Origin: Mycoplasmatota bacterium
GTDB taxonomy: Bacteria > Bacillota_I > Bacilli_A > MAG-NZ
Assembly (NCBI GenBank): GCA_018394315.1
Contig: CP074575.1
Location: 1,019,501-1,083,500, forward strand
Direction of reading: 5' to 3'
DNA length: 64,000 nt
The stretch's first letter is position 1. Every line of letters starts with the position of its first letter. A program made the position numbers and the translations under genes. Below the pieces are notes generated by a model. That model had not been told where the DNA came from. It made no database searches and saw only the letters and a list, made by a program, of their open reading frames with translations. Below, piece by piece: positions 30,658 to 55,706 of this stretch.

Positions 30658-31761
30658 ATGGCAGGAAAAAAAAACAATATTCCAGGTATCAATTTACCTT
30701 GGGAGTATGCAATATTTATTGCAATCATTGTAATAGTGATTGGTGCTATTCAATGGGGATGGTTCCAGTTTGGTGGAGTTCATGAGATTGATCGTGTAAA
30801 TCCAGTCGTACTATTAGATGTTGATTCAGAAGTCAGCACTGTTGAGAAAGAAGGTACATTTGATATAGAAGTTAAAGTAGACAATGGTGAGGATACGGAA
30901 ATTATTGCATTTATTATTAATGCTGTGGAGTATACTGAGTTCGTTCAGTCTTCAACCGAAGATGGACTATATACTATAAACGTTACAGCTGACGATCTAA
31001 TCGGAACAAAAGTGTACGAAGTACAGAAGATCAAGTACCAGGTGGACTCAGAAGATAAGACACTTAGTATTATCGAGGATGATTCTATTACATCAGCAGT
31101 AACAATGACACTTACTCATAATGAACCGAAATTCATGGGAGTAGCAGTTAATGAAAATGTAGCTGTAGGTACTGCAGCAGCTGTTGTAATCAGCTTTGAT
31201 GATGTTGAAGGTATATCTGAAGTCGTAATTGATGGTATTACTTATGATGAAGAGACTGACTTTGATGTAGTTGACAATGCAGAAGAAATTACTGTTAACA
31301 TTGCTGGTTTATCTGTAGGTGAACATGAGTATATCTTAGAGTCATATACGTTTGATACTGGAACTCAAAGTATAAAAGTTGAATTAACTTCGAGTAATAC
31401 AATGACGTTTGATGTTGTTAAAGCAGTACCTGAGCTATTATCAATAATACCAAGTGTTGACACATTTACAACTTCAGGAGTAGTAGAAGGGACTGCAGAT
31501 TACAACTTAGTAATTACATTTGATGAGGTTGATGATATCTTCAGTATTACAATTAGTGATACTAAGTATGTTTTATCTAGTAATAATGATGTTACAGTGA
31601 ATGCAGTATCTGATACTATTACGATTGCATTAAGTCAAACAGATGATACAGTTGGAACGTACTCGTTTGAGCTAGAAGAGTTTGAATTCTATAATTCACT
31701 TGAAATGATTATTGAGGCGTTAACTGAAGAAAACACGTATAGTATTTCAGTAACTGCATAG
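30658..31761 (+). CDS. Membrane-anchored protein with three Ig-like repeats
   Basis: 367 residues. A single N-terminal membrane helix (about residues 17-38) has a Lys-rich segment before it, so the rest would face outward. The outer part contains three related beta-rich units of about 100 residues, each with a pattern like VxIxFDDVEGISEVVIDGITYDE. The same type of unit occurs five times in the 898-residue protein downstream. It is very acidic. Likely an extracellular or virion surface component; exact function unknown. AGGAGG lies 7 bp from the ATG. Confidence 0.72.
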   Translation: MAGKKNNIPGINLPWEYAIFIAIIVIVIGAIQWGWFQFGGVHEIDRVNPVVLLDVDSEVSTVEKEGTFDIEVKVDNGEDTEIIAFIINAVEYTEFVQSSTEDGLYTINVTADDLIGTKVYEVQKIKYQVDSEDKTLSIIEDDSITSAVTMTLTHNEPKFMGVAVNENVAVGTAAAVVISFDDVEGISEVVIDGITYDEETDFDVVDNAEEITVNIAGLSVGEHEYILESYTFDTGTQSIKVELTSSNTMTFDVVKAVPELLSIIPSVDTFTTSGVVEGTADYNLVITFDEVDDIFSITISDTKYVLSSNNDVTVNAVSDTITIALSQTDDTVGTYSFELEEFEFYNSLEMIIEALTEENTYSISVTA

Positions 31762-31778
31762 GAAAGTGGTGAATATAT

Positions 31779-32090
31779 ATGGAAGTAATTCTTAAATTAT
31801 TTGAAAATACAAGAGAATTCATTACTTCAATATATACAGTAGCACGATTAGGGACCGCATTTAGTTACTTCATGTGGGCCCTTCTTTTTATAATTGCTGT
31901 AATGTTGTTAGTAATTGTAATTCTTTTACTTAGAGGAGTAGCCTTTATATTTGAATTTATATTCGCATTACCTGACTTCTTTAGAGATAGTGACGGTGAT
32001 GGGATAAAAGATAGAAAAGATACTGATAAAAATGGTGATGGTATCCTTGATTGGATGCAACCTAAGAATATCTTTAAAAGAAGGAGGTAA
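31779..32090 (+). CDS. Membrane protein with calcium-binding-like DxDGDG tail
   Basis: 103 residues. A long hydrophobic stretch (about residues 25-60, one or two helices) is followed by DSDGDGIKDRKDTDKNGDGILDW, two thrombospondin-type-3-like calcium-binding loops, and a basic end. The family is not recognised. In the operon it lies between two surface proteins with near-zero spacing. Confidence 0.68.
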   Translation: MEVILKLFENTREFITSIYTVARLGTAFSYFMWALLFIIAVMLLVIVILLLRGVAFIFEFIFALPDFFRDSDGDGIKDRKDTDKNGDGILDWMQPKNIFKRRR

Positions 32091-32095
32091 TTTGA

Positions 32096-34792: not shown

Positions 34793-35907
34793 AAAAACTG
34801 CTAATCATATTAATGGTACTTGCAATATTCATGATACGTATTCCTGAAGGAGTCGCATCTGAAGAACTAAAACAGATTGGTGATAAACAGATACCACCAA
34901 CAGAACATCCTCTTTTAATTCATCAGTCATTCGAGACTGTAGGGGATAGAAAATATAGGATGGAGTTAGGTTTTGGAACTAAAACACCCTTTGTAAGAAA
35001 TTATTTTCTTACCTATTATGACCTCAATTATAAAATTGAATACATAGTTATTAATAATCAGAAGATATATCCTAAATGGGCTGTCGAAGGAAGAGATGAC
35101 GTATATTATGAATTTGGTTATAAAGTAGTAAACCTATTTTCTCCTGTACCGAGTGACGTGTGGATGTGGTATGAGATTACATTTGACAAAGTACTACCAC
35201 CCGACATCAATAATAAGTGGTATGTAAATGAAATTAAATTTCAAAATATGAGTTATGACTTTGTGAGTGATAATGGAGAGAAATATCCAACCTACTTGTT
35301 TGAGTATGATGACTTGAGTAAATATCCTAGGATTGTTCTTGAGCATGGAGATGTATTTCATCACGAACTAGGTTATTTATTCGTAGAACCAGGATATACA
35401 GCATTCTCAACTTACGATGAAACATTGTCACTCGAGGAAAGAGACATTACAAATAGGGTTGTTGAAGACTACGGATCCATAACACCAGGAGAGCCTATTG
35501 AGGTCGAAGATTCATATATCATTAACTATACTGTTGAGGACGATTTTGGAAATGTTGGATCTACTACTAGGCTATTAGTCATTGGTGATGCAGAACCACC
35601 TTTAATAAATGAGGATCCTGAGCCTGAGACACCTTTTGTAGAAGATGGCACAGATACAGCAACTGACAACACAGAGTCTTCATTCGACTTCGAGCAATTT
35701 TTACTCGATTACTGGTGGGTAGGATTAATTATAGCCTTTGCAATTATTATGTTTGCAACCAATAGCTTTACAAAGTCATTTGCAGTGACGATTATTATAT
35801 TCGTCATACTACTTATGATATACGGAAATGAGTTGATTGACTTATCACTTGAAGGATTGATAATAGATGGACTCACAGAAACAGTAGAAAGTAGAATTAC
35901 AAGTTAA
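34789..35907 (+). CDS. Secreted/membrane protein with DUF5011-like domain and C-terminal helices
   Basis: 372 residues. A signal peptide of about 24 residues is followed by a unique domain, then an Ig-like HYR/DUF5011-type domain (FVEPGYTAFSTYDETLSLEERDITN...YIINYTVEDDFGNVGSTTRLLVIGD), an acidic Pro/Thr linker and two or three membrane helices (about 305-350). It overlaps both neighbours (ATGA at the start; TAATG at the end). Probably part of the same membrane or virion assembly. Confidence 0.72.
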   Translation: MKKLLIILMVLAIFMIRIPEGVASEELKQIGDKQIPPTEHPLLIHQSFETVGDRKYRMELGFGTKTPFVRNYFLTYYDLNYKIEYIVINNQKIYPKWAVEGRDDVYYEFGYKVVNLFSPVPSDVWMWYEITFDKVLPPDINNKWYVNEIKFQNMSYDFVSDNGEKYPTYLFEYDDLSKYPRIVLEHGDVFHHELGYLFVEPGYTAFSTYDETLSLEERDITNRVVEDYGSITPGEPIEVEDSYIINYTVEDDFGNVGSTTRLLVIGDAEPPLINEDPEPETPFVEDGTDTATDNTESSFDFEQFLLDYWWVGLIIAFAIIMFATNSFTKSFAVTIIIFVILLMIYGNELIDLSLEGLIIDGLTETVESRITS

Positions 35908-36179
35908 TGTTTAAGCTGTTTCAGATTGATAGTTTTGAAGAATTTATGGTGTACTTCAATGACTTTAATCCTTCTGTTAAGCTGATACTTTATATAATAA
36001 TTTTTGCTTTAATAGTTTTTATCGCAAAAAAAATAAAGTGGGCCGGAAAGGTAATGAACTATCTAGTGGGGATCACAATAGTCTTAAAACTAGTTTCTAT
36101 GGCTGGATTCCAAGTCACTTGGATAGAAGGTTGGCTTGAAATGGTTAGCTATGCAATAATGTTTTGGGGGTTGGCGTAA
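35907..36179 (+). CDS. Small membrane protein next to the Zot-like ATPase
   Basis: 90 residues with two or three hydrophobic segments and a basic loop (KKIKWAGK). The ATG and stop overlap the flanking genes. In inoviruses a small multi-helix membrane protein (gpVI type) often lies between the adsorption protein and the Zot-like protein, which fits this order. Sequence alone does not prove it. Confidence 0.65.
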   Translation: MFKLFQIDSFEEFMVYFNDFNPSVKLILYIIIFALIVFIAKKIKWAGKVMNYLVGITIVLKLVSMAGFQVTWIEGWLEMVSYAIMFWGLA

Positions 36180-38266
36180 TGTTTGAAGTAGAAAGAGTGG
36201 ATAAAATTAAAAATTTCCTAGATAGACTTGCTAGAATACTTAAGCAGCTACTCTTAATAGCAGTAATATATATAGTATATAACTTAATTATAGGAACAAT
36301 TACTCCTGAACAATTATTGAGAATGTCTTTGGTGATTGCTGCAGTAGTTGCAGTAATCGCCATTGTTATATCTCTATTGTATAAGTTTATTTGGGAGTAT
36401 GTTGAATGTGAGATACTAAGGAAGAAATCAGCACAAGTACTTGTAGACACTAAAAAGATACCAATGGTGAGACAAGTATCAGGCGATCAGGGACGAGGTA
36501 AAGATGCAAGTACAACAGCATCTGCAATCTTAATTAGAAAAATGCTGATTGAGAGAGATTTAGAAAGAATGGAAGTTATTAGGGACAAGCTTTATATCTA
36601 TGACTTTGATAAAGTTCATGACTTTCTAGATAGTAGTTATCATGGACGCAAATTCATAGTTAACAGAGAGACAACATTAAAGCAGCGATTTGTGTCAGCT
36701 CTAAGAAAAAAAAACTCATTTCTATTAGGTGAATATAGAGAGTCACATAGTGAAGAGGCAGACGCTCACATTCTTAATTATCTAAAAAGAAAAGAAGGAT
36801 TAAAGATATATAGAGATGGAATAACACCTGGTGGAGTAGCGTTCTTGGATTTACTTCTTGAGTACTTTATTTATTATGTTAGATATGTACATGTAACTAA
36901 CTATATCTTGAGTAATCAACCTATTATAGAAGTACTTGAAATGGATAAGAACAACAAAGTAAAAGAGCTGCTTATGTCGAAGAAATTTAAACAGAGTATA
37001 ATCAGAATTAAAGAGGATAATTCATTCCCAGTTACTCACTCAATGATTGTAGTGGAAACTGAAACAGCAATATTAAACGGAAATGTAGATAAAGCTCAGG
37101 AACAATATGTCAAAGCTATATCAGGTATCAGAGAATTTTTCACACTTATTAGACATTTACTCGGGGAGGATTGTTTTTACTACACTATAACGCAGGATCC
37201 ATTTAGACCCATAAAAGCAGTTAGGGAATTACAACAATGCTACATGGAAGTGTTTGGTTCAACAGAGCGATGTACATCCCCAGTAATAAGAAAGACACTA
37301 GGGATATATATAAAAATATTAAAGCTAATGAATAAGATAAACTTACTTGTAATGAAACTGGATAGAGATAAGGTTGAAGATAAGTTTAGGGGAATTAAGA
37401 GACAGTTAATTAAGACTAGAAACAAGCTAGGAGCTGTACTAGAGAAACTGAAAGTATTTAAGATTATTAAGAAGGCTATCTTTAGAAATAAGAAACGAAT
37501 ATCTAGAAGTAAAGAGATACAAGATAAGCTCGATAATAATGGGTATATTGAGTTTCAAATAGGAGTTTATAAATCCATTAAAGATGTAGGTAAAAAGGTT
37601 AAATTTCCTAAGATGTTCGAGGGAGTTATTTTAGAGAATGAGAGTGAGGCGCATGAAAAGAGGGCATTTGGATTTAGACTTACGTGTAGAAAAAAAGACA
37701 CTTGGTGTAGATATGATACTAAGTTCTTAAGTATATTCAGAAGATATAAAACATATAAGCACTCAGAGACTTTTTATAATCTTATAAACTGGGAGAGTCT
37801 GTCACTAAATGAGAAGGACATAGAGTACATGGACTACGGAGCTTTCAACAACATCATGGATCCTCTGATTGATAACATTGTGGAGTTTGATTCCATTGAG
37901 GATCGTGAAAAGAGAAACTTAGAAATATTGACTCAGTTATCAGTAACAGAGCCTAAGAAGTTTAATAAGATGATTCAAAACGCTGGTTTGATGAAGAAGA
38001 CGAAGATAGTGGCAAGAAAGGTTGATAACAAAGTTATTCCTCAAGCTAGACCAAACTATAATCAGTTAGATATACATGAGTTAATGGATCTAGCTTGTGA
38101 GCGTGGTTATGAAGAATGGGTAATACAGCAGCTAGTAACTGAAGAGGTGCTCAACCAGGATGATATAGAATCTATTGAAGACTTTAACGAAGAACTAACA
38201 GAACATGGATACCATAAGAAAGATAAAATACTAAAGTTTTTAAAGTATTACACTAGTGCATCATGA
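36179..38266 (+). CDS. Zot/gpI-like membrane P-loop ATPase (morphogenesis or extrusion candidate)
   Basis: 695 residues from the ATG at 36179, which overlaps the previous stop. Two membrane helices lie at about 22-38 and 48-72. A Walker A-like loop SGDQGRGKDAST (residues 101-112) follows; the Ser/Thr normally after the Lys is replaced by Asp. Further on, MIVVETETA (about 289-297) looks like Walker B, and EFFTLIRHLLGEDCFYYTITQDPFRPIKAVREL matches the arginine-His helix plus TQD strand seen in Zot/gpI ATPases of filamentous phages. Unlike them, the membrane helices come first and the protein is about twice as long. The C-terminal 300 residues are basic and unassigned. Confidence 0.68.
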   Translation: MFEVERVDKIKNFLDRLARILKQLLLIAVIYIVYNLIIGTITPEQLLRMSLVIAAVVAVIAIVISLLYKFIWEYVECEILRKKSAQVLVDTKKIPMVRQVSGDQGRGKDASTTASAILIRKMLIERDLERMEVIRDKLYIYDFDKVHDFLDSSYHGRKFIVNRETTLKQRFVSALRKKNSFLLGEYRESHSEEADAHILNYLKRKEGLKIYRDGITPGGVAFLDLLLEYFIYYVRYVHVTNYILSNQPIIEVLEMDKNNKVKELLMSKKFKQSIIRIKEDNSFPVTHSMIVVETETAILNGNVDKAQEQYVKAISGIREFFTLIRHLLGEDCFYYTITQDPFRPIKAVRELQQCYMEVFGSTERCTSPVIRKTLGIYIKILKLMNKINLLVMKLDRDKVEDKFRGIKRQLIKTRNKLGAVLEKLKVFKIIKKAIFRNKKRISRSKEIQDKLDNNGYIEFQIGVYKSIKDVGKKVKFPKMFEGVILENESEAHEKRAFGFRLTCRKKDTWCRYDTKFLSIFRRYKTYKHSETFYNLINWESLSLNEKDIEYMDYGAFNNIMDPLIDNIVEFDSIEDREKRNLEILTQLSVTEPKKFNKMIQNAGLMKKTKIVARKVDNKVIPQARPNYNQLDIHELMDLACERGYEEWVIQQLVTEEVLNQDDIESIEDFNEELTEHGYHKKDKILKFLKYYTSAS

Positions 38267-39792: not shown

Positions 39793-39863
39793 ATTTGATA
39801 CTACTCTATATGATATTATTAGAATGTATACACATAATTACCAACAATTATGGGGGAAATAGA

Positions 39864-41363
39864 ATGAATAATCCGGCTTATGTTCAGAAATTTGATAATG
39901 TATTGCGAAAGGTTTATCTTAAAGATAGACTGATATTTTCACAGGTACAATCAACACAATTAATGGGAATTCATAACAATAAAGTGCTTGAATACGGGAA
40001 GAAGGGTCTTTTTCCTGAAAATTATGTTTTTTTTTCTTGCAGAAGTATTCAAGATTTCGGAGGAAAACCATATAAGGATTATAACTTTTTAATGAAAAAC
40101 ATTAAAAACCTTGTTTCAAATCAAAATTCTGTTTTAGAGATTTATAATAATTCACACAGTCATGAAGAACTAAAAACAGTGTTATTATATACACAGATTC
40201 CGTTACAAAGAAATTATGAATATTTGTATTACAGGTATAATTATATTTTCAGTTTTGTTAACGACAAAATTGACATGAATACTGTATTTTATAATAAATT
40301 TGGTACTTCTCATATTAGATTTACAGATTTTATGATGAGTTTTATTGTAACTACCAATGCCCTTAAAAATTATCCTATGCGTTATATAAACATGTTAAAT
40401 AATCTCTTTAGGAGATTTAACGATGTAGTCACAGAGTTATCTCAACACAGGGATAAGTTGATAAACATTCATAAACTAAGGAGAAATAAAAATAGACTTT
40501 TCTCAATACTTGATCTAAATATCTTGAACTCATACCCAATTGTATATTTCTACAACGATAAGAAATATTTAGAAATGGCGGTGCCGTTTGTTCCATCTAT
40601 AGTAAATGCATGCACTGAGTCTCTGCTTTTTAGATTGACAGAGAATAAAGACGGTTTAAGATCTATTATAGGAAAAGAAGTACTAGAAGAATATGTTTAT
40701 CATATCATCGATACAAGTACTACATCAGGAGTACATAAGATGATTAGGGAATTTAGTTATAATAAAGGTGATAAGTTTTGCGATATCACATTATTAGATG
40801 ACCACGATAATATCATCTTAGTTGAGATTAAGATGGGAACACCCCCTTTGAAAATAAGAGACATGAATGAAAAGGAAATCAATAATTATAATAAAAGAAT
40901 TTCTGAAGTGATAGTTCAAGCATATAAGAAGATTACTTTGTTACAAAGTGGTTCGATAACATCAGATGACGGTAGCATATCTCTTGTTGCAAAAAGTAGA
41001 TTATTTGGAATAGCAGTTTTAAATAGTGAAATATACCATAATAAAGAGGGTATATATAATTTTGCATTAAATGATTTACGTGATTTTGGTATATCAGTTA
41101 ATATGCAAGAATTATGTGAGAAAGTAATGATAGTATCTCTATATGACTTTGAGAGATGGCTGCATAGTGGAACTCAGACAATAATCAATTATTGCGAAGA
41201 AAACAAAACAAGTAAGACTTTTTTTGATGTTGTTTACAATCCCTCAGGTGTTAATCAGTCGAATTTGATACTTGAAAAATATACTACAATGCTTAGTACC
41301 TTTGTTGATGAAGAGAAAGAGCATTTTGAATTATTCCTGTCTAAGAGTAAAAATAATTCATAA
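39864..41363 (+). CDS. PD-(D/E)XK-like nuclease domain protein, defence candidate
   Basis: The ATG at 39864 follows GGGGGAAATAG; the in-frame stretch upstream to 39735 overlaps the terminator and has no ribosome site. The product has 499 residues. The C-terminal half has KFCDITLLDDHDNIILVEIKMG, the D-(x)n-ExK pattern of restriction-like nucleases, followed by QAYKKITLLQSG, a possible supporting Gln helix. The first 300 residues are unassigned, rich in Tyr, Phe and Asn, and have no membrane segment. It is a lone gene between two copies of one terminator, which fits a single-gene defence cassette. No named family is claimed. Confidence 0.62.
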   Translation: MNNPAYVQKFDNVLRKVYLKDRLIFSQVQSTQLMGIHNNKVLEYGKKGLFPENYVFFSCRSIQDFGGKPYKDYNFLMKNIKNLVSNQNSVLEIYNNSHSHEELKTVLLYTQIPLQRNYEYLYYRYNYIFSFVNDKIDMNTVFYNKFGTSHIRFTDFMMSFIVTTNALKNYPMRYINMLNNLFRRFNDVVTELSQHRDKLINIHKLRRNKNRLFSILDLNILNSYPIVYFYNDKKYLEMAVPFVPSIVNACTESLLFRLTENKDGLRSIIGKEVLEEYVYHIIDTSTTSGVHKMIREFSYNKGDKFCDITLLDDHDNIILVEIKMGTPPLKIRDMNEKEINNYNKRISEVIVQAYKKITLLQSGSITSDDGSISLVAKSRLFGIAVLNSEIYHNKEGIYNFALNDLRDFGISVNMQELCEKVMIVSLYDFERWLHSGTQTIINYCEENKTSKTFFDVVYNPSGVNQSNLILEKYTTMLSTFVDEEKEHFELFLSKSKNNS

Positions 41364-41471
41364 TCGTTGGAATTGTTATCACTGATAATACTCAGACGAA
41401 ATGGTATAAAAAAGTTAAGCAATTATGTGGAAATGTTTCATTATTATTAGATACCATAAATGATTCAGTAT

Positions 41472-41494
41472 GAGGGACATTGAGTCCCTTTTTC
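41472..41494 (+). terminator. Repeated GAGGGAC/GTCCC terminator
   Basis: The 17-nt core is identical to the hairpin at 39770, followed by five T. It ends the nuclease cassette and precedes the next one. Confidence 0.8.
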
Positions 41495-41583
41495 TCTTAT
41501 CAACCCTCTGAAAAAGAAATCCATTCACAAGATGTCAAGATAGGTCATTGTTCTGTGTTTATTAGACCTATTAAACCAATATT

Positions 41584-41592
41584 TGATATAAT
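41584..41592 (+). promoter_or_regulatory. Extended -10 promoter of the next cassette
   Basis: TGATATAAT at 41584-41592; the same TGATATAAT occurs before the methyltransferase operon and the NLR-like gene. Confidence 0.55.
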
Positions 41593-41613
41593 ATACATAA
41601 AAGGGGGACACAC

Positions 41614-42485
41614 ATGAACGTTAAGATAGATCTAAAATCAGACTTTCATAGTAATATGAGACTGAAGATAATGACTGAGGGTATAATTACCGAAGGTATA
41701 ACTAGAGAAGATACCTTAGTTATAAGATATTTGACATATTTGAGAAAAATCGGTTATCCATCTCAAAAACGACATATTTTCGAATCAGCTAGTTTTCATT
41801 GTCCATCTGCTCACAGAGCGGGATTAGAATGTATAAAAGAGAAACTTAAAGATGGAGAGTCCATTTTTGCTCACCATAGTAAAAAGATAGACAACTTAAA
41901 TGTGAATGACCTTATGTTCAACGAATGGGGAGTAGTGCACCTTCATCTAGGCGTGGAATCAGATTCAAATGATCCTAGATTTGTACAACGCACTGGTCCA
42001 TTATTATTTGTGTTGTTAAGTGATAAAGAGGCATACTTAATTGGTGTAGGAAAGCATGGTGATTGGACTGATTCAAATATCTTAAAAACTATCTATGAAA
42101 ATTGGCCGCAATTTATAGAACGAAATATTGTTGATGCAAAAGGAATCTCCTATGAATTAACTAGTGCAGAACACGCTGGATTAAGAAAAGAAAATATTAA
42201 CGCTGTTCTTGCATTTGAGAGCGGTGGAGTAAAATATACTATACCCCAATTGGAATTGCTACTTCAGGTGATTCTATTAGAGATGTCAGGAATTACATGC
42301 GGGTTATTAGTATTTTAAACATCACTGAGCAAGAGATAATAGAAAATATAGAGGAGAATCTAGAAAAGATTAAAAACATAGGAGGGCTTACATTGTCTGA
42401 TATAGAATGTCGCCTTGAATATGACGATGGGTGGTATGTTGTAGAAATAAACAGTGAAGTAATCATTTCTCGACATTCCTTATAA
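41614..42485 (+). pseudogene. Unknown cytosolic protein split by a 5-bp tandem duplication
   Basis: The first frame (41614-42318) gives 234 residues; its last 20 or so (PQLELLLQVILLEMSGITC...) look like out-of-frame sequence. The second frame (42297-42485) reads upstream as YTPIGIATSGDSIRDVRNYM before MRVISILNITEQEI. TATAC occurs twice in a row at 42235-42244; removing one copy joins ...AFESGGVKYT to PIGIATSGDS..., giving about 289 residues. GPLLFVLLSDKEAYLIGVGKHGDW is a well-formed segment of the first part, but I do not recognise the family. Either inactivated or phase-variable. Confidence 0.68.
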
Positions 42486-43975: not shown

Positions 43976-45256
43976 ATGACTACCATTAATTCAATTGAAG
44001 AACTTAAAGGAATTAATTTTGAACTAATTCCTGAAGATGATAAATGGAGTTTTGGAGAGAGCAAGGAGCATCCTATGCACAGAATCCATGCTTACCCTGC
44101 CAAATTTCCTGGTTTCATTGCCGAAAAGGCCATAGATTTCGCACTAGATAATGGAGTGGTTCTTGAAACTATTGCTGATACTTTTTGTGGGTGTGGTACT
44201 GTCGCACTTGCTGCTAAGCAAAGGAACTTCAATTTCTGGGGAGTTGACATCAATCCAGTTGCAACTTTAATTGCAAATTCTAAACTTCATGATTATGATA
44301 TTTTCAAAGTTGAAGAGTACTATAAAGAAATTAAATCAAATCTGCTGGGTAGCACTGAAAGTTTAAGTCAGTCCTCTAATAGTAGAATCCAGTATTGGTT
44401 TAACAAGAACACTATTGGTGAACTTTCAAGACTTCTAGAATCCATAAATACAACTGCCCCTGAAGGAAAGTATAGAGATTTATTTTTGACTGTATACTCA
44501 AGTATTCTGAAAACCACTTCTAAATGGTTATCAAAGTCAATCAAACCTCAAGTAGATCCTAATAAAATCATCATAAAAGTGACAGATGCATTTGAAAGAA
44601 ATTACAATAAAACCCTTAAGGCATTAAAGATTGCATCTGAGTCATCTTCGAATATTACTATAGAAACCAATAATTTTCTAAATACGAATTGTGTCGCACC
44701 TAAGATCGATTTACTAGTTACAAGTCCTCCATACGTAACATCTTATGAGTATGCAGATTTGCACCAATTATCTACTCTTTGGCTCGGGTTTACAGAGGAT
44801 TACAAAGAACTAAGGCAGGACACAATTGGTAGTTTGTACAAGAGTGGTTCCAGAGGCGATGTTCGTGAAGGTCGCTTGAATCAGACAGTGAAGCAAATGA
44901 TTTTGAATTTAAATGATACTAATATTTCAAAGACAAGAATCAATTCAATAATAACTTATTACTTAGACATGCAGAATGTAGTCAAAAAAATAGCAAGATC
45001 GATAAATAATAATGGAATGGTTGTGTTTGTCATTGGAGATACAGAATATAAGGGAATTAAAATAACAAACGCTAAGCATTTAGTAGAATGTCTTCTCTTA
45101 AACAACATTGCTGATATAAAACTTGTAAAAAGGAAGATTTCAAATAAATCATTAACACCGTATAGAGATAAGAACGGGAGATTCACTAAAGATAAAAACG
45201 CAAGAAAGATTTATAGCGAGGAATTTGTAGTTATTGGGAGGAAATTTGATGCCTAA
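43976..45256 (+). CDS. DNA methyltransferase (TSPPY type) of a three-gene system
   Basis: 426 residues. SAM-binding motif I is DTFCGCGTVALAA (about 68-80), followed by WGVDINP; catalytic motif IV is TSPPY (249-253). Motif I before IV is the order of the alpha/gamma groups, and TSPPY is common in N4-cytosine and some N6-adenine enzymes. The inserted segment between the motifs (about 100-240) may recognise DNA. The gene overlaps the next by eight bases. It presumably marks self DNA for the sensor and receiver proteins that follow. Confidence 0.85.
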   Translation: MTTINSIEELKGINFELIPEDDKWSFGESKEHPMHRIHAYPAKFPGFIAEKAIDFALDNGVVLETIADTFCGCGTVALAAKQRNFNFWGVDINPVATLIANSKLHDYDIFKVEEYYKEIKSNLLGSTESLSQSSNSRIQYWFNKNTIGELSRLLESINTTAPEGKYRDLFLTVYSSILKTTSKWLSKSIKPQVDPNKIIIKVTDAFERNYNKTLKALKIASESSSNITIETNNFLNTNCVAPKIDLLVTSPPYVTSYEYADLHQLSTLWLGFTEDYKELRQDTIGSLYKSGSRGDVREGRLNQTVKQMILNLNDTNISKTRINSIITYYLDMQNVVKKIARSINNNGMVVFVIGDTEYKGIKITNAKHLVECLLLNNIADIKLVKRKISNKSLTPYRDKNGRFTKDKNARKIYSEEFVVIGRKFDA

Positions 45257-47543
45257 GAAAAAGGAAGAATTACGCATGAGACCTTATGCAAGGTTGTTAA
45301 CCATGCTAAGTGAGCAACTTATAAAGAATGAAATAATTGCATTATCAGAGTTAATCAAAAATGCTTATGATGCTGGTTCAAAGTGGGTCGAAGTAAATTT
45401 TGAAAATTTCGGGGAGAATTATGAAATTTTTGGAGATTCTCAAATTACTATTTCAGATACTGGTTGTGGAATGAATAAGGATATTATTGTAAACCATTTT
45501 ATGAACCCTGCGACATCTGTGAAAAAACACTTGGATTCAAACTCTGAGAACAGAGTACCGCAGGGTGAAAAAGGAATTGGTAGATTCTCTATGTTCAAAC
45601 TTGGTAACAAAGTAAATATCATTACTAAGACTATAGATGAAAACTTTGGACATAACTTAACATTTGACTTCTCTGACTATGATAACGAGTTTTTACAACA
45701 AAATGGGGAAGAAAAGGAAATCTATCTAGATTCCATCTATGCAGAATATGAAAAAATTTATAATGTCGAGATTCTGAAAAAGAATAAAGGTACAATAATA
45801 GAAATTACAGGAATAAAAGGAAGTTGGAATTCTAAAAAGGTACGTGAGTTTGTAGATGAAATGGTAAGATTTATTCCTATAAAGTTTCAAGACAAAGAAT
45901 CAAATAAAGTCAAAAAAAACACCTTTGAGATAAGATTGTTAAAGGATGGAATCAAGCTCAGAAATTTTGAAGAAGCTGCTAAGGAAATAAGAAACATCGT
46001 TGAGCACAAAGCAGTAATCAAAATTACAGATGGTTTCTATGATGAGAAGAAAAAAACAGTGAGCTTTAATTATCAAAAGGGAGACTCTATTGTTAGAAAA
46101 GGCTTTATCGACTTGGTCCCAAAAAGCAAAGATATTATGAGTAGGTCGCAACATTCTTTTACTGCGAAAATGCAAGGTCTTTCATTATACAGGGGAAGTT
46201 CGGTAATAAAGGAACCGGTTTCAGACTATTTTGGGGAAGGTGAAACTACTTCATGTGGATCCTTTTCATTTAAATTTTATGTTTTTGATTTTTCAGGTAC
46301 CCAATTGGATCCTTACGGACTGAATAAGAATGAGAAAAATAGATTACGGAACCATAGAGTTTTCTTATATCGTGATGGGGTTAGAGTACAACCATATGGA
46401 GCAAGTGATGACGACTGGTTAGAAATGGATAGAAGAAGAGCTGCAACTAAAGCTAGTGAGATTTTCAGTAATGATCAAATATTAGGAGAAATAGGTATCG
46501 GAAAATTCAGCAATCCGAACTTAATAGATAAAACTAACAGAGAAGGTTTAATAACAGATGACGAGTCCTTTAAACAAATGATTACTCTTATAGGAGCATT
46601 TCTAAGTACCATAAGAGTAAGTTTGTATATGGAATATATTTACTCGAAGAACAAAAGAAAAGAAGAAGATAAAAAATCAAAACAAGCAAACTATACTATT
46701 GATTTGCAATACCTAGCGAATACTTTTAAAAGCGATAAACAATTATTAAAAAGAGTCAAAAACATCGAGGATGAGTTTCACAGACAAGACAAACAACACG
46801 CTAGTAGGATGAAGATAGTAGAAAATCTAGCAGGAATTGGTCTGTCAGTGGAAATGGCAGCTCATGATACAAATTTGACAATTAGTAGATTAGTTGACAA
46901 AATTGGTTACCTGAGGAGTGAATTGGTACAAGCACCCTTAACAATAATGAATAATTTACATTCAATACAAGAAAGTGTAATTAGTGCAGAGGAAGGTGTG
47001 GCGCTTCTAAGAGATAAGATGAAAAACATTGACCAACTATTTGCCTCTTCAAGTTCACGACCAAAAAATGTTAGGATAGAAGAAATCATACGTAAAGTTG
47101 AACTCATGTATGGAAAAAAACTACGAGATGCAGATATAGTTGTTAAGTATAATCTCATTGGGATATCACCACTCATTGTTAGGATTGTAGACGCATTTGT
47201 TTATCAAATATTCATAAATTTATTTGACAATGCATGCTACTTTCTTGATGGTATAGAAGGTACAAAAATTATTACAATCACCCTAGATTCTGAAAGGCTA
47301 AAAGTTATTTTCTCAGACAATGGACCAGGTATATCTTCATTAGATAAACCTTTCGTATTCGATGCTTTTTACTCTACAAAAGGAGAAGAAGGAAAAGGTC
47401 TGGGGATGTATATTGCTAAGAGGTTGCTTGAAAGAGGAGAATTTAACATATATATACCTAGACTCGCAGAAGAAGTAATTCATGAAGGGGCTAATTTCGT
47501 AATAGATTTCGCAAAAAACAATGAAAGTGATGGTTCGTATTGA
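45249..47543 (+). CDS. Dual-GHKL protein: HSP90/MORC-like ATPase fused to a histidine kinase
   Basis: 764 residues from the ATG at 45249 (GGGAGGA six bases upstream). The N-terminal GHKL ATPase has the N-box ELIKNAYDAG (about 34-43), DTGCGM (70-75) and GEKGIGRFSM (107-115), as in MutL/HSP90/MORC proteins. The C-terminal part has a dimerisation/phosphoacceptor-like helix with His (SVEMAAHDTNLTISRLV) and a second ATP-binding domain with NLFDNACYFL, DNGPGIS and GKGLGMYIAKRL, i.e. a classical histidine kinase core. No membrane helix is present, so it senses something in the cytoplasm. The next gene encodes a receiver domain, its probable phosphorylation partner. Confidence 0.85.
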   Translation: MPKKKEELRMRPYARLLTMLSEQLIKNEIIALSELIKNAYDAGSKWVEVNFENFGENYEIFGDSQITISDTGCGMNKDIIVNHFMNPATSVKKHLDSNSENRVPQGEKGIGRFSMFKLGNKVNIITKTIDENFGHNLTFDFSDYDNEFLQQNGEEKEIYLDSIYAEYEKIYNVEILKKNKGTIIEITGIKGSWNSKKVREFVDEMVRFIPIKFQDKESNKVKKNTFEIRLLKDGIKLRNFEEAAKEIRNIVEHKAVIKITDGFYDEKKKTVSFNYQKGDSIVRKGFIDLVPKSKDIMSRSQHSFTAKMQGLSLYRGSSVIKEPVSDYFGEGETTSCGSFSFKFYVFDFSGTQLDPYGLNKNEKNRLRNHRVFLYRDGVRVQPYGASDDDWLEMDRRRAATKASEIFSNDQILGEIGIGKFSNPNLIDKTNREGLITDDESFKQMITLIGAFLSTIRVSLYMEYIYSKNKRKEEDKKSKQANYTIDLQYLANTFKSDKQLLKRVKNIEDEFHRQDKQHASRMKIVENLAGIGLSVEMAAHDTNLTISRLVDKIGYLRSELVQAPLTIMNNLHSIQESVISAEEGVALLRDKMKNIDQLFASSSSRPKNVRIEEIIRKVELMYGKKLRDADIVVKYNLIGISPLIVRIVDAFVYQIFINLFDNACYFLDGIEGTKIITITLDSERLKVIFSDNGPGISSLDKPFVFDAFYSTKGEEGKGLGMYIAKRLLERGEFNIYIPRLAEEVIHEGANFVIDFAKNNESDGSY

Positions 47544-48835
47544 TGAAGGTAGAAGATGTCAAAAATATTTCTGATATAATGAAGAAAGGATTAGTACTAA
47601 TAGTCGATGATAAAGTCGGTGTTGAAGATTCATCTGATAGAGTAAATGCTATCGTGACAAGCCTTGAACAGACGAGTCTTTTATTGATTAAATTGAGGAA
47701 TATTCCAGAACAAAAGACTGAATCATTCGCTAATTTGGCCTTCATTATTTTGGACTGGGAACTGAATCTGGATATTCCAGATGCTCCAGCTGGAGTAAAT
47801 CTTAAACAGGATGTAAAAACCGTTGATAAAGGGGAGATTATAAAGTTTATCGACGAAATTTCTAACAAGTATTTCATTCCAATCTTTATTTTTACAGGAC
47901 GTAGTAACAAGGAAATTGAAGACATTAAAAAGGACATAGTTAATACAAGTTCATTTTATAGTGAAACCAACATAGAGGAAAGTAATCTCTTTATTAAAAA
48001 TAAAGAAGAACTCCTGGAAGAAGGAGTGTTTGAAGTTTTCGACCAATGGTTAGTTGAAAATCCTGCAATATATTTAATGAAGGAGTATGAGAATACATTC
48101 TATAAATCAATACATAATTTTTATAGATCTATGGTAGAGTCTCATAAATCATGGCCAATAGTTGCTTATAACACCATACTTGAGGATAATATTGAACCTC
48201 TCCCTGCTATGAAGGAGTTCTTGAGTAAATGTATTACTGCGCATTCTGGTGACTTTTCATTTAACAAAGATTTTTTTAGTATAGAGCCAACAGATCAGAT
48301 TGAACAATTACAAAAAATATGGGAGAATATGAAGTTTATTACATATTCAGAAGAATATTTAGAAAATGTGGAATCTCAAACGTCAGGAGATATCTATGTG
48401 TTCAATGGTGAAGGAGGTGCCAGCAAAAGAAGGTATTTGATTAACATAACACCAGTATGTAACACTAGAAACGGCAAGATGCTCTATTTATTGGGTAAAC
48501 GTAAAAATAAAACGGAGGAAGATGGTCTCCACAACGGTTCTATAATCGACAGAGCAAACGAAAAGACAATTCCTAATCTGCTAGATCAGAAATTTATCTC
48601 ATTTGACTTTACAAAGTTTAATGTTTTCTTATTTGATGAAGGCTCAAATTTTAATAAAGTGACTATCCAAAAAAGAACTACAAAGAGAGTAGACGGAAAA
48701 CCTGTAGTACAACTAGATAACCAGGAATATGTTTTAGTTGGAAGACTTATGGAGCCATATCTCTCGACTTTACAAAGGGCTAATTCTAATTACATTAGTA
48801 GAATTGGAACTCCAAGGTTGCCCAAAGTTTCATAA
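47543..48835 (+). CDS. Receiver-domain protein, partner of the dual-GHKL kinase
   Basis: 430 residues; the ATG overlaps the kinase stop (TGATG). The first 140 residues read like a phosphoreceiver: GLVLIVDDKVG (acidic pair), FIILDWELN (phospho-Asp) and IPIFIFTGRSNK (Thr and following strand). The remaining 290 residues are unassigned; they could form the effector or DNA-binding part. The gene ends the operon and is followed by the cassette-end repeat. Restriction-like or signalling effector function is inferred only from context. Confidence 0.75.
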   Translation: MKVEDVKNISDIMKKGLVLIVDDKVGVEDSSDRVNAIVTSLEQTSLLLIKLRNIPEQKTESFANLAFIILDWELNLDIPDAPAGVNLKQDVKTVDKGEIIKFIDEISNKYFIPIFIFTGRSNKEIEDIKKDIVNTSSFYSETNIEESNLFIKNKEELLEEGVFEVFDQWLVENPAIYLMKEYENTFYKSIHNFYRSMVESHKSWPIVAYNTILEDNIEPLPAMKEFLSKCITAHSGDFSFNKDFFSIEPTDQIEQLQKIWENMKFITYSEEYLENVESQTSGDIYVFNGEGGASKRRYLINITPVCNTRNGKMLYLLGKRKNKTEEDGLHNGSIIDRANEKTIPNLLDQKFISFDFTKFNVFLFDEGSNFNKVTIQKRTTKRVDGKPVVQLDNQEYVLVGRLMEPYLSTLQRANSNYISRIGTPRLPKVS

Positions 48836-48940
48836 TCTTAATTTGAAAGCTCACCGATTAAACCTTAGAATATGACAATAATTTAGGAAGTTACATTTGT
48901 TATTAATCTATCATTAATATACATTTACTGTTATATTTAA

Positions 48941-49006
48941 AAATAATTGCTCTTATGCAATTATTTTTATGAGAGTAAGAATCCGTCACCTAAAAAGTAC
49001 AATGGG
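48941..49006 (+). repeat. Cassette-end repeat, copy B
   Basis: Terminator AAATAATTGC/GCAATTATTT, then GAGAGTAAGAATCCGTC...CTAAAAAGTACAATGG, matching copies A and C. Confidence 0.72.
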
Positions 49007-49097: not shown

Positions 49098-49163
49098 TTA
49101 GACAACAATTCTTGTAACTGTGGATGTTTGAATTTATTGTCTTATCAAGTAGGAGGAAGAACA

Positions 49164-51743
49164 ATGAATAAAAAATTAGAAATGCATGCTATGGTAGATG
49201 CAATAGAAAGGGATTTAATTTGCTATATAAGTGCAAAGGTTAATGACAAGAATGTCCCTGCAAAAATCATAAAAAAAATTAAAGAAAGATTAGGATATTA
49301 TAATCTGGAAGAGGGAGTATTATACTTGGATCTCCAGGACTTTATTGAGATAATAAATATTAATTCCAAAAGATTAGATTTCGATGAAGAAGAGATTAAG
49401 TATTTAAACAAGCATATAGTAAGAATCATACCTATAAGGAATAGAGTAATGCATCCTAGACCTCTAGAATTCGATGATTATCCTATTCTGAAAAATGTGT
49501 TTAATTGTGTTTCTATTTATATAAAAACTATTAAGTGGAAGTGTACAGAAAAAGTTATTAAGATAGTTTCAGATTCACCAAATGATTTACTTTCTCTAGA
49601 TTTTAGAGAAGTAAGTAAACAATCCGATATATTCGAGAACCTTCCACTTCCAGATTTTGATGATACAACCTATATTGGTAGAAGGAGAGAGAGAGCAGAA
49701 ATTAGGGAATTACTCTTGAATGATAGGGTATATGTTGTAACTGTTAAAGGTGAAGGAGGAATAGGAAAATCGGCCACTGTCTTAAAAACACTTTACGATC
49801 TACTAGATGATAGCGAGAATCCCTTTGAAGCAATAATTTGGAGTACACTTAAAACAGAACACTTAAATAATTCGGAATTTATAAAAATAAATGATGCTAT
49901 AAATTCTTTTGAATTATTACAATCCAATATCTCAAATGAGGTGATTAAAGACAGTAACCTAACAGAAGAAGAAAATATAATGAATTTTGTCAAAGAGTTT
50001 AACACCTTATTAGTAATAGATAACTTAGAAACATTGAATTCAGATGATGTAAGAGACTTTATTATTAGATTCACAGAGTACGGTAAAATTCTGATTACTT
50101 CAAGAATAGGATTAGGAGAACTTGAGAGACGATATAGTCTCGACACAATGAGTGATAATGATTCATTTGCGTACGCCACAGCCCTTCTTTCCTATCATAA
50201 TCTTGAGAGCATTTTTAGCAACGAGGAATTAAAACACCTAATTAAAGATGAACTATATTGCAATCCGCTTTCAATTAAGTGGTATGTGAGATCATTAGCC
50301 AATGGACTGGATCATAATGATGTTCTAAAAAATAAGATGGATGTAGTAAACTTTTGCATGTCAAATGTATATGAAGGTCTAAGTGAACTCTCGATGCTTG
50401 TACTATCGGTGTGTGTTATAGAGGATAGACCACTAAGTTACCCTAATATTACCTTTTTACTGGATATGAAATATGAGTTAGAATTTAAGATAAGAAGGTC
50501 TGTAAACGAACTAGACATCTCCAATTTCTTAGAATCGAGCAAGCTAAAAAGAGGAATAGTTAACTTAACTGCAATCGCAAGGAATTATTTAAGAATTAAC
50601 CATTTTCCGGACAAGAAACTGATAGAGAGAATAATTAGAAAACGTAAGAAACTCAGCAACTTAAAGCAAGAGATGGAAATTAAAAATATCCAAGACAGGT
50701 ATAATCCCAAATCTCTTATGTCGTTTGATAAAGAAAACAATTTAGTTGCGGGATGGTACTTATTTCGTGCTATAGAATGTAAAGAAAGCTCTGATTGGGA
50801 ACAAGCTTTTGAGTACGTAGAGATGGCAAAAAAAATCTCACCAAAATATTTTGAATCGTATAAAATCTCAGCATATTTATTGTCGTGTAAGGGTGACAAA
50901 AACGCCAATACGGAATACAAGACAGCTTATGACCTATGCACAACTGACGATGAGAGGGTCACGATACTAGCACTTTGGGCATCTCATTCTCTTGAAAGAG
51001 AGGACAGACATGAAGCCTTAAGGATGATAAATGAAGCTGAACGAATTGATGGTTCAAATTATCACATAAAACTAGACAAAGTTAAAATGTTGAGTAACCT
51101 GGGTAAATATGACGAGGCCATTAGCATATTGGAAAATATAGATATAAGTAAATTATCTACTCTAAAATACAAGAATATTTACTATACTAGATATGCAGAT
51201 GTTTATAGAAGAAGATCAGAGAGAATAGAGTTCAAATATTTCGATGGAAGATTTTCTCTTTTGCAAAAAGCTTATGATGTACTAGAAAAATCTCCTGGTT
51301 CAGATTTTAGGCTCGCAAACATGAAAATAAGGATTCTTCAATTGATTTCTGAGTATTCTACAAGGGAAGAAGCAATGGAATTTTTATTAGAGAAAATTTC
51401 TAGTGATGAGATAGAACTATATAGCCACTCAAAATTCGACAAGTTTATCAAATCCTTTAGAAGCAGAGTTGTTAATATTGATAACGAAGAATTGAAGAAT
51501 CAGTTAAAAAGATATTTAGTAGACTATAATGAAAAAGCCACAGCGGTTAAAGAGAAGGATGAAGGAATCGTTGTATTTATGAAAGATAATTATGGATTTG
51601 TAAAAAACGCATCATTAAAGAGAGGATTGTATTTTACCTTACCAAGGAAGTTAAGTTTGAGGTTGGGTGATAGAGTAAAATTCCAGATACGAGATAGTTC
51701 TAAAGGACAACCTGCAGCAAGGATTCTTGATAAGATAGCCTAA
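49164..51743 (+). CDS. NLR-like STAND NTPase: HEPN - NB-ARC - TPR - cold-shock-like
   Basis: 859 residues from the ATG at 49164 (AGGAGG upstream). Residues 1-135 are helical with IRNRVMHPRP, an R-x4-H motif (R92, H97) as in HEPN/Swt1-type ribonuclease domains. The NTPase has P-loop GEGGIGKSA (196-204), Walker B LLVIDNLETL and the ILITSR sensor, typical of NB-ARC/AP-ATPases. Then come a winged-helix-like part and TPR-like helical repeats (YLFRAIECKESSDWEQAFEYVEMAKKISP). The last about 65 residues (GIVVFMKDNYGFVKN ... LRLGDRVKFQIRD) resemble a cold-shock/OB domain. It is a single-gene cassette in a defence-like region, so an antiphage sensor that cuts RNA is a reasonable hypothesis. Confidence 0.8.
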   Translation: MNKKLEMHAMVDAIERDLICYISAKVNDKNVPAKIIKKIKERLGYYNLEEGVLYLDLQDFIEIININSKRLDFDEEEIKYLNKHIVRIIPIRNRVMHPRPLEFDDYPILKNVFNCVSIYIKTIKWKCTEKVIKIVSDSPNDLLSLDFREVSKQSDIFENLPLPDFDDTTYIGRRRERAEIRELLLNDRVYVVTVKGEGGIGKSATVLKTLYDLLDDSENPFEAIIWSTLKTEHLNNSEFIKINDAINSFELLQSNISNEVIKDSNLTEEENIMNFVKEFNTLLVIDNLETLNSDDVRDFIIRFTEYGKILITSRIGLGELERRYSLDTMSDNDSFAYATALLSYHNLESIFSNEELKHLIKDELYCNPLSIKWYVRSLANGLDHNDVLKNKMDVVNFCMSNVYEGLSELSMLVLSVCVIEDRPLSYPNITFLLDMKYELEFKIRRSVNELDISNFLESSKLKRGIVNLTAIARNYLRINHFPDKKLIERIIRKRKKLSNLKQEMEIKNIQDRYNPKSLMSFDKENNLVAGWYLFRAIECKESSDWEQAFEYVEMAKKISPKYFESYKISAYLLSCKGDKNANTEYKTAYDLCTTDDERVTILALWASHSLEREDRHEALRMINEAERIDGSNYHIKLDKVKMLSNLGKYDEAISILENIDISKLSTLKYKNIYYTRYADVYRRRSERIEFKYFDGRFSLLQKAYDVLEKSPGSDFRLANMKIRILQLISEYSTREEAMEFLLEKISSDEIELYSHSKFDKFIKSFRSRVVNIDNEELKNQLKRYLVDYNEKATAVKEKDEGIVVFMKDNYGFVKNASLKRGLYFTLPRKLSLRLGDRVKFQIRDSSKGQPAARILDKIA

Positions 51744-51827
51744 CTAATAAATTCATTCTCGTAGCATAGGCAGTTAGTATAGGTATTATGGGTTAAGAAT
51801 TTATCTGTTTCATATTCAAATTTATAA

Positions 51828-51893
51828 AATAATCGAAATAAATTCGATTATTTTTTTTGAGAGTAAGTTTCTGTCGCTCTAAAACGTATAATG
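51828..51893 (+). repeat. Cassette-end repeat, copy C
   Basis: Terminator AATAATCGAA/TTCGATTATT plus eight T, then GAGAGTAAGTTTCTGTC...CTAAAACGTATAATG, matching A and B. It lies about 125 bp before attR. Confidence 0.72.
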
Positions 51894-52017: not shown

Positions 52018-52047
52018 ACGGGGGTTCGACTCCCCCCAACTCCACCA
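52018..52047 (+). repeat. attR (copy of the ssrA 3' end)
   Basis: 30 bp identical to 23567-23596, including the T-arm and CCA of tmRNA, with no tmRNA body upstream. Confidence 0.93.
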
Positions 52048-53799: not shown

Positions 53800-55371
53800 A
53801 TGATAAAAACATATGATTTTGCTAGAAATAATGAAGACATAAAGAATAAACCTTTTTGTATGAATTGGCCTGTAGTTTATATTATTGAAGATGGAACCTC
53901 TGTATATATAGGCGAAACCAATAATTTTTATAATAGAACTAACACGCATTCTTTAGATGATGAAAAGAAACATCTGAAAAGAATTCATATGATAACAAAA
54001 AATGATTTTAATTCCTCTGTAATTGCTGATATTGAATCATTTTTGATACGTCATTTTGATGCCGATAATCAAATGGTAGTACTAAATAAAAACGGAGGAA
54101 GAGGAAACTTATTATATTATCAGAAGGAATTCTATTATTCTAAGATTCCATCTATATGGGAAAGATTACTGAAGAAGAGATTAGTGACTCATGATTTGGT
54201 TCAAATAGAAAATTCGGATTTGTTCAAATACTCTCCGTATACATCTCTTAGTGATGATCAGTTAGCTATTAGCGAAATGATTATCGATTATATTAAGACA
54301 AAAGAAGAATCGATTAGTATCATTGATGGATTGCCTGGTACTGGAAAGACTGTACTTGCTATGTATTTGCTAAAGTTATTATCCTTATATGATTCTCTAA
54401 CAGCGGATGATATTGCTCTTGTAGTGCCAATGTCATCATTGAGATCAACACTTAAGTCAGTTGTAAAGACAGTTAAAGGACTAAAAGCTTCAATGGTTAT
54501 TGGACCTGCTGATGTAGTGAAAAAAAATTATAAGATACTTATTGTGGATGAAGCTCATCGACTTAGAAGAAGAGTAAATATAACTAATTATGGATCCTTT
54601 GATAAAGTAAATAAAAATTTGGAATTGGATAAGAATGAGGGGAATGAGCTAGATTGGATAATGAAGAGTAGTAGGCACCAAATTTTGTTTTATGATGAGA
54701 ATCAGTCAGTTAGACCGAGTGATGTTATAGTTGAGGATTTTTATAAAGTAAAAGAGCTAGCTACTGTCTATACATTGGAGTCTCAACACCGAGTTGCTGC
54801 TGGTATAAACTATGTTAATTATATAAAGAATATATTTACTAATATGCAAAATGGAATAGTTCATTTTGATAACTATGATTCTCTGATAATTGATGACTTC
54901 TCTTATTTGGTTGAATTGATTAACAATAAAGATAAGGAAGTTGGTTTATCGCGTGTAGTATCTGGATACTCCTTTGAGTGGGTGTCAAAAAGAGATAAAT
55001 CATTGAGTGATATCACACTTGATGGCATATCGATGCAATGGAATACTACTGCGAGTAATTGGGTAAACAGTAAAAATGCGTTAGAGGAAGTTGGATGTAT
55101 ACATACTGTTCAGGGATATGACTTAAACTATATAGGTTTAATTATAGGAAAAGATATAGATTATGATTTTGAGTTGAAAAAGTTTATAGTTGATAGAGAC
55201 CAGTATTTTGATATAAAAGGGAAGGCTACTATAGATAGTGAGGAGCAACTCCTAGAATATATTAGAAACATTTACATTACTCTCTCAACAAGAGCAATTA
55301 AAGGAATATATTTTTATATTTGTAATGATAACATGAAAAAATATATGCAACAGTACTTCGATACAAAATAG
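53800..55371 (+). CDS. GIY-YIG nuclease fused to a DUF2075 helicase-like ATPase
   Basis: 523 residues. The N-terminal 100 residues form a GIY-YIG nuclease: VVYIIEDGTSVYIGETNNFYNR, and a later Glu in DIESFLIRHF. From about 165 a superfamily 1-like P-loop domain follows: GLPGTGKTVLA (Walker A), ILIVDEAHRLRR (Walker B), ESQHR and HTVQGYDLNYIGLIIGKD near the end, typical of DUF2075. Both modules look intact. It sits nine bases before a MazG-like gene, so the two are probably co-translated. A nucleic-acid-cleaving defence role is inferred from the domains and the setting. Confidence 0.85.
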   Translation: MIKTYDFARNNEDIKNKPFCMNWPVVYIIEDGTSVYIGETNNFYNRTNTHSLDDEKKHLKRIHMITKNDFNSSVIADIESFLIRHFDADNQMVVLNKNGGRGNLLYYQKEFYYSKIPSIWERLLKKRLVTHDLVQIENSDLFKYSPYTSLSDDQLAISEMIIDYIKTKEESISIIDGLPGTGKTVLAMYLLKLLSLYDSLTADDIALVVPMSSLRSTLKSVVKTVKGLKASMVIGPADVVKKNYKILIVDEAHRLRRRVNITNYGSFDKVNKNLELDKNEGNELDWIMKSSRHQILFYDENQSVRPSDVIVEDFYKVKELATVYTLESQHRVAAGINYVNYIKNIFTNMQNGIVHFDNYDSLIIDDFSYLVELINNKDKEVGLSRVVSGYSFEWVSKRDKSLSDITLDGISMQWNTTASNWVNSKNALEEVGCIHTVQGYDLNYIGLIIGKDIDYDFELKKFIVDRDQYFDIKGKATIDSEEQLLEYIRNIYITLSTRAIKGIYFYICNDNMKKYMQQYFDTK

Positions 55372-55379
55372 GAGGAATT

Positions 55380-55706
55380 ATGAAAAACATAGAAGAATTA
55401 ACTCAACTCCTAGTCAAGTTTAGAGATGATAGGGATTGGAAACAATTTCATACACCAGAGAATCTATCTAAGAGTATAATGCTTGAAGCTGCTGAACTTC
55501 TAGAAAATTTTCAGTGGCAATGTGAGTCAGACGACTTAGATAACATTAAAGAAGAGATAGCGGATATTTTTGGATATTTGCTTCTACTTTGTAACCACTA
55601 TGACCTAAACTTAATTGAAATAACAAAATCAAAAATCAATCAAAACTCTGAAAAGTATCCGGTAGATAAATCTTATGGGATAAGCACGAAGTATAATAGA
55701 CTATAA
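55380..55706 (+). CDS. MazG-like nucleotide pyrophosphohydrolase
   Basis: 108 residues. EAAELLENFQW and EEIADIFGYLLLL give the ExxE...ExxD metal-binding pattern of all-alpha NTP pyrophosphatases; the N-terminus (LVKFRDDRDWKQFHTPENLSKS) is typical of the short MazG-like group. These enzymes hydrolyse nucleotide triphosphates. Pairing with the DUF2075 protein suggests a shared function. AGGAGG precedes the ATG. Confidence 0.88.
   Translation: MKNIEELTQLLVKFRDDRDWKQFHTPENLSKSIMLEAAELLENFQWQCESDDLDNIKEEIADIFGYLLLLCNHYDLNLIEITKSKINQNSEKYPVDKSYGISTKYNRL

Follow-up and report, generated by a model that had tools for sequence, protein, structure and literature searches.

A HEPN-NB-ARC-TPR protein with a cold-shock-like tail, encoded at the end of a tmRNA-gene island in a Mycoplasmatota bacterium

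The gene described here lies at positions 49164-51743 on the forward strand of the window, which is the whole 64,000-nucleotide stretch of DNA that was analyzed from a Mycoplasmatota bacterium. It is an intact open reading frame that begins with an ATG at 49164, ends with a stop codon at 51741-51743, and encodes a protein of 859 amino acids. A ribosome-binding site (AGGAGG, 49151-49156, forward strand) precedes the start codon, and a rival long reading frame was not found on the opposite strand of this stretch. Upstream, a terminator-like hairpin on the forward strand (48938-48969, fold -12.7 kcal/mol, z -2.96), for which a GC-based terminator scan raised no flag, separates the gene from a preceding cassette. 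A second terminator-like hairpin, followed by a T-run, is located 3′ of the gene on the same strand (51826-51855, fold -11.2 kcal/mol, z -3.02). Because the gene is flanked by hairpins on both sides, it is likely a single-gene unit. An operon shared with the upstream methyltransferase, HATPase and receiver cassette was considered and rejected, given the gap of about 330 bp, the intervening hairpin, and the lack of such partners near the relatives of the gene.

The gene is the last cargo gene of a 28-kb island in the tmRNA gene ssrA (window 23568-52047), and the final long open reading frame before the right attachment core. The ssrA gene spans 23249-23596, its 3′ end (23568-23596, forward strand) forms the left attachment core, and an exact copy of this 29-bp sequence is found at 52019-52047 on the forward strand, so that two exact matches were observed where none was expected. 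A tyrosine integrase gene (23626-24612, reverse strand; Pfam Phage_integrase 1.2e-33) adjoins the left core. Other cargo includes two members of defense families at 39861-42318, namely a GapS1-like gene (NCBIfam E 5e-7, below the cut-off) followed by a PD-T4-7-like gene (PADLOC 3.5e-21). At 43976-48835 there is an apparent three-gene cassette that starts with a DNA methyltransferase; its second protein combines an N-terminal HSP90/BbrUII-like ATPase with a C-terminal histidine-kinase-type ATPase, and its third is distantly similar to Response_reg_2 (E 0.3). The cassette resembles a not yet catalogued defense system of the restriction or two-component type. The region 30658-38266 encodes large secreted or membrane-type proteins and a 700-amino-acid P-loop protein (GDQGRGKD) for which Pfam, PADLOC and PHROG matches are absent, and these are possibly the transfer or virion genes of the island itself. 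Just beyond the island, at 53800-55706, a gene for a GIY-YIG nuclease joined to a helicase of the Schlafen group 3 type (Pfam 2.5e-54) precedes a MazG-like gene.

An earlier note, made from the sequence of the gene alone, had read the protein as an NLR-like receptor with a HEPN-type N-terminus, an NB-ARC NTPase, TPR-like repeats and a cold-shock-like C-terminus. This order is correct, with all four parts recovered by sequence and modelling, and the residue numbers it gave (R92, H97 and K202) agree exactly with the translated open reading frame. The observation is thus confirmed and exceeds what is expected by chance.

The protein belongs to PHROG 24039, a family of unknown function, with an E value of 4.9e-105 over residues 7-762; the 780-position profile match ends ahead of the C-terminal cold-shock domain. 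The relatives score up to 1e-188 against the same profile, and a divergent Acinetobacter baumannii protein scores 5e-31. Relatives in genome contigs were obtained by an alignment-based search, a single-protein search of these contigs having found none. Relatives were also not found in the collection of phage records, whereas IMG/VR contigs do carry them. The tree of 25 members consists of a Bacillota group, which contains the window protein, and a proteobacterial group, with further members from Ignavibacteriota, Thermodesulfobacteriota and Actinomycetota. Of three sequences that were at first counted as members (L005-L007), L005 turned out to carry an AlbA_2 effector (Pfam 4.6e-15), and the start of L006 is similar. 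Both L005 (982-3390) and L006 (982-3396) have an AlbA_2-like N-terminus, a related NTPase and helices of the TPR-like kind. The scaffold thus appears to be shared and the effector exchanged, and the C-terminal cold-shock domain is absent in both.

In terms of genomic setting, one relative (L060) is located directly after a phage endolysin gene, and another (L024) has integrase and primase genes next to it, an arrangement like that of phage satellites. The A. baumannii relative (L058, 3518-6190) stands alone as the largest gene of 8-kb plasmids and has the motif RNAISH and a cold-shock-like tail, while the relative in Rhizobium sp. BG4 adjoins type I restriction-modification genes. In 20 relatives, the vicinity of the gene showed no conserved operon partner or recurring gene family, and PADLOC has no model or match for the family. 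A defense role is well supported by context, namely by carriage on mobile elements, the prophage lysis-adjacent locus and the defense-like neighbors.

The N-terminal region (residues 1-140; 49164-49583, forward strand) is assigned as an all-helical HEPN domain of the Swt1-like type. Its AlphaFold2 (AF2) model is confident and consists entirely of helices (pLDDT 89, pTM 0.82), which, together with R92-N-x3-H97, bears out the claim of an R-x4-H motif in an N-terminal helical domain. The predicted catalytic motif, R92-N-R-V-M-H97 (49437-49454, forward strand), terminates the helix at residues 75-96 and is followed by a helix at 105-119. HEPN motifs canonically sit at the end of a helix and the start of the next loop and follow the rule R-x4-6-H with a polar residue after the arginine (PMC3710099); 25/25 members have RN...H. 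R92, N93, H97, the P-loop lysine and the acidic residue E15 (49206-49208, forward strand) are invariant in the alignment of 25 relatives from several phyla. The family consensus around E15 is E-x3-K/R, with K or R four residues after the glutamate in 18/25 and I19 in the window protein.

The genome scan pattern included P-x-R-N-x-V-M, so the conservation of R, N, V and M in L008-L023 is partly built in, and H97, P100 and L101 lay outside the pattern. Besides the window protein, 7 of the 25 relatives were recovered without use of the HEPN motif: three plasmid proteins (from Planococcus and Rhizobium plasmids), the A. baumannii plasmid protein, and proteins from the IMG/VR contigs L060, L061 and L063. 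All seven retain R-N-x3-H, in the versions RNRVMH, RNSVMH, RNAISH, RNKVMH, RNRVCH and RNATMH.

Database support for the HEPN/Swt1 assignment, one of the checks that the earlier note had named, is divided. HEPN_Swt1, the sole HEPN family detected with Pfam, matches 11/21 members, and alignment with hhalign to three HEPN_Swt1 proteins superimposes the motifs (probability 80, E 1.4e-5). However, each member viewed singly is below the Pfam cut-off (best 19.8 versus 27.5 bits), a Foldseek search of the N-domain model against the PDB gave no significant match, and a HEPN match was absent from the PDB profile search with this domain. The assignment hence depends on the motif, its position, the topology and the remote profile, and a fold match plays no part in it. 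On this sequence evidence the domain is predicted to act as an RNase.

The NB-ARC/STAND NTPase (residues ~155-420; 49626-50423, forward strand) stands as proposed, since the window protein itself exceeds the Pfam NB-ARC cut-off (25.9 versus 23.5 bits). Walker A (KGEGGIGKS, 49746-49772, forward strand) contains K202, and Walker B (LLVIDNLET, 50007-50033, forward strand) contains D286; both residues are present in 25/25 members, and T312, R314 and P368 of the TSR and GxP-type motifs are likewise invariant. An NTPase profile searched against the PDB matched the archaeal STAND-TPR sensor PH0952 (6e-8), plant NLRs (~5e-5) and Avs4 (0.005). Foldseek with the whole model found the wheat resistosome NLR and CED-4 (E ~1e-7) and human SAMD9 (9zjr, E 2.2e-7). 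The NTPase is followed by a helical linker or winged-helix-like region of AF2 helices (residues ~421-520; 50424-50723, forward strand) and then by about seven TPR-like helix pairs (residues 524-792; 50733-51539, forward strand). The TPR signal is weak in the window protein alone, but the repeats are borne out by TPR families in 18/21 members and by the helix pairs of the AF2 model.

The C-terminal domain (residues 796-857; 51549-51734, forward strand) is similarly barely visible in the window protein alone (Pfam E 0.023; UNR in the PDB, E 0.64). A profile of 11 C-terminal sequences matched UNR/CSDE1 at 4e-18 in the PDB, CspA at 6.5e-9, CspC and CspA at ~5e-9, and CspB at ~1e-6 to 1e-7. The Pfam cold-shock cut-off is exceeded in L017 and L019, and the AF2 model of the window protein forms a five-strand barrel (800-807, 810-814, 822-825, 837-842 and 851-857). 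These results uphold the suggested OB/cold-shock-like domain. The whole-family profile also matches stand-alone cold-shock-sized reading frames in numerous genomes across the phylum, among them one in the genome that contains the window (G000:C1:940705-940905, E 5e-7). On out-of-sample tailed members, the C-terminal profile scored above all 2600 shuffled decoys, with the tails of L058, L063 and L019 beating the decoys narrowly (E 0.02-0.05).

An RNP1-like Y-G-F-V is located at residues 810-813 (51591-51602, forward strand). Its aromatics are largely kept, F812 in 23/23 and Y/F810 in 22/23 aligned ungapped rows; one of these rows belongs to a member that lacks the domain and overlaps there by chance. 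A cold-shock-like tail is present in 22/25 members, including all seven motif-independent homologs, and is absent in L018, L024 and L022, while L017, L019 and L020 have a tandem pair of these domains. The three tailless members fall in two places in the tree, with L022 adjoining a tailed member. The simplest account is that the ancestor had the domain and that it disappeared on two or more occasions. Because it is doubled in some members and missing in others, a recognition module fits better than a catalytic one. Cold-shock OB folds bind single-stranded RNA, and the tail may do the same. That it detects RNA, as the earlier note had suggested, is something we only infer; it could equally hand RNA substrates over to the HEPN domain or be autoinhibitory.

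Sequence and modelling together establish that the protein has all four domains and invariant catalytic residues, that its gene is a unit of its own and that mobile elements carry it. We interpret the protein as a self-contained, mobile-element NLR that brings about abortive infection through a HEPN RNase released by a phage trigger and that has an RNA-contacting tail, with a probability of about 0.7. In the resting state, the NB-ARC/TPR body would keep the HEPN domain in check. Recognition of a trigger made by the phage, through the TPR/cold-shock half, would lead to nucleotide exchange in the NTPase and to oligomerization, and the HEPN domains brought together in the oligomer would become active R-N-x3-H ribonucleases. 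Cleavage of RNA (tRNA, rRNA or mRNA) would then stop translation before phage are produced. The cold-shock tail would contact RNA, either reading RNA or an RNA-bound complex or presenting substrate RNA, and may tune specificity and not be strictly required.

The abortive-infection reading is favored because the HEPN residues and the P-loop lysine are invariant in 25 members, motif-independent homologs included; because the STAND fold was found with Foldseek, the cold-shock domain was confirmed, and no operon partner is shared; and because carriage is prophage, satellite-like, plasmid, restriction-modification-adjacent and in an ssrA island, with Tha as a precedent. It is weakened by the sub-cut-off HEPN_Swt1 scores, the N-domain without a significant PDB match, the partly built-in R/N/V/M conservation in L008-L023, the lack of a PADLOC model, and the three relatives without the cold-shock domain.

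Less likely, but possible as well, is a division of labor in which the TPR surface recognizes a phage protein and the cold-shock domain is a substrate arm that feeds tRNA or ribosome-bound RNA to the HEPN domain. The general affinity of cold-shock folds for single-stranded RNA and the retained RNP1-like aromatics would suit such an arm. The Tha HEPN RNase, which responds to a phage protein and not to RNA (PMC11087260), also agrees with it. However, the three members without the cold-shock domain keep the HEPN motif intact, so not every member requires this domain for its substrate, and the sensors of STAND proteins are usually C-terminal. A toxin/addiction role, or that of a housekeeping stress RNase, in which the protein would stabilize mobile elements and not defend against phage, appears unlikely: plasmid and island carriage is frequent, as this would predict, but an antitoxin or conserved partner gene is absent in 20 relatives, the NLR architecture has a nucleotide switch, and the settings are prophage and satellite-like with defense-like neighbors. 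Loss of activity is on record for some Swt1-type HEPN domains (PMC3710099), and here the domain might be inactive and serve as an RNA- or nucleotide-binding adaptor. We regard this as very improbable, since R, N, H and E15 are the same in all 25 divergent members while the flanking motif residues vary (RNRVCH, RNAISH, RNATMH).

The window protein is a real, well-conserved member of an architecture on record since 2013, and is related to the immune receptors of plants and animals; the prophage and plasmid carriage of its relatives points to an inbuilt alarm against phages. Being compact, encoded by one gene, spread over several phyla and prophage-borne, the family is easy to assay, and it could reveal whether RNA is what an NLR detects when its sensing end bears an RNA-binding domain.

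The earlier note had not taken the architecture as standard, but bacterial HEPN(Swt1)-STAND-TPR-(S1/cold-shock OB) proteins were already described from sequence by Anantharaman et al. in 2013, with Bacillus cereus gi 229028907, Npun_F6454, MED222_16016 and Desac_1927 as examples (PMC3710099). As compared by the text and Table 1 description, their domain order is identical to that of the window protein (PMC3710099). Functional work on this layout was not found in the open-access literature, most subscription papers being outside the scope of the search. Avs and bNACHT proteins share the STAND NTPase switch and an N-terminal effector (Avs4 by the NTPase profile, E 0.005) but differ in the effector and the C-terminus, and PADLOC gave no Avs model match for the window protein. 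CoCoNuT type IV restriction systems also combine HEPN RNases with cold-shock-like OB folds; they differ in being multi-gene and in having a McrBC-type GTPase rather than NB-ARC (PMC11090510). Tha is a prophage-borne HEPN RNase with the near-identical motif RNSIMH, in which H270A abolishes defense and the trigger is a phage tail protein, but it has 301 amino acids and a C-terminal HEPN domain, and STAND, TPR or cold-shock domains are not reported for it (PMC11087260). Since this trigger is a phage structural protein, precedent does not demand an RNA trigger.

The most interesting lead, and the part worth pursuing, is the parallel with SAMD9. This protein has been dissected as AlbA_2, SIR2-like, STAND, TPR and an OB fold "most similar to cold-shock" (PMC5445408), and it acts as an anticodon nuclease on tRNA-Phe (PMC13245274). 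SAMD9/SAMD9L thus resemble the window family in their scaffold of RNase, STAND NTPase, TPR and cold-shock-like OB fold (PMC5445408, PMC13245274), of which the STAND-TPR-OB core is present in the window protein, and some members have two OB folds, comparable to the tandem domains of L017, L019 and L020. They differ in that their RNase is AlbA_2 (tRNase-SA), they have a SIR2-like domain, and their P-loop is without the lysine. Membership in the SAMD9 family was rejected, as the window protein has neither AlbA_2 nor a SIR2-like domain; a sequence-level match was not found, and the parallel is drawn from shared domain order and the Foldseek match. The SAMD9 literature, as far as it is searchable, does not mention a link to the HEPN family. 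It is rather unlikely, but conceivable, that the family corresponds in prokaryotes to SAMD9, with the RNase swapped on one STAND-TPR-OB scaffold (HEPN here; AlbA_2 in SAMD9 as well as in L005 and L006 from bacteria), with an OB tail that would read the state of translation or RNA and with tRNA cleavage as the shared outcome. The family could show whether bacteria possess a functional parallel to the way in which human SAMD9, with its NLR body, RNase head and OB tail, counters viruses.
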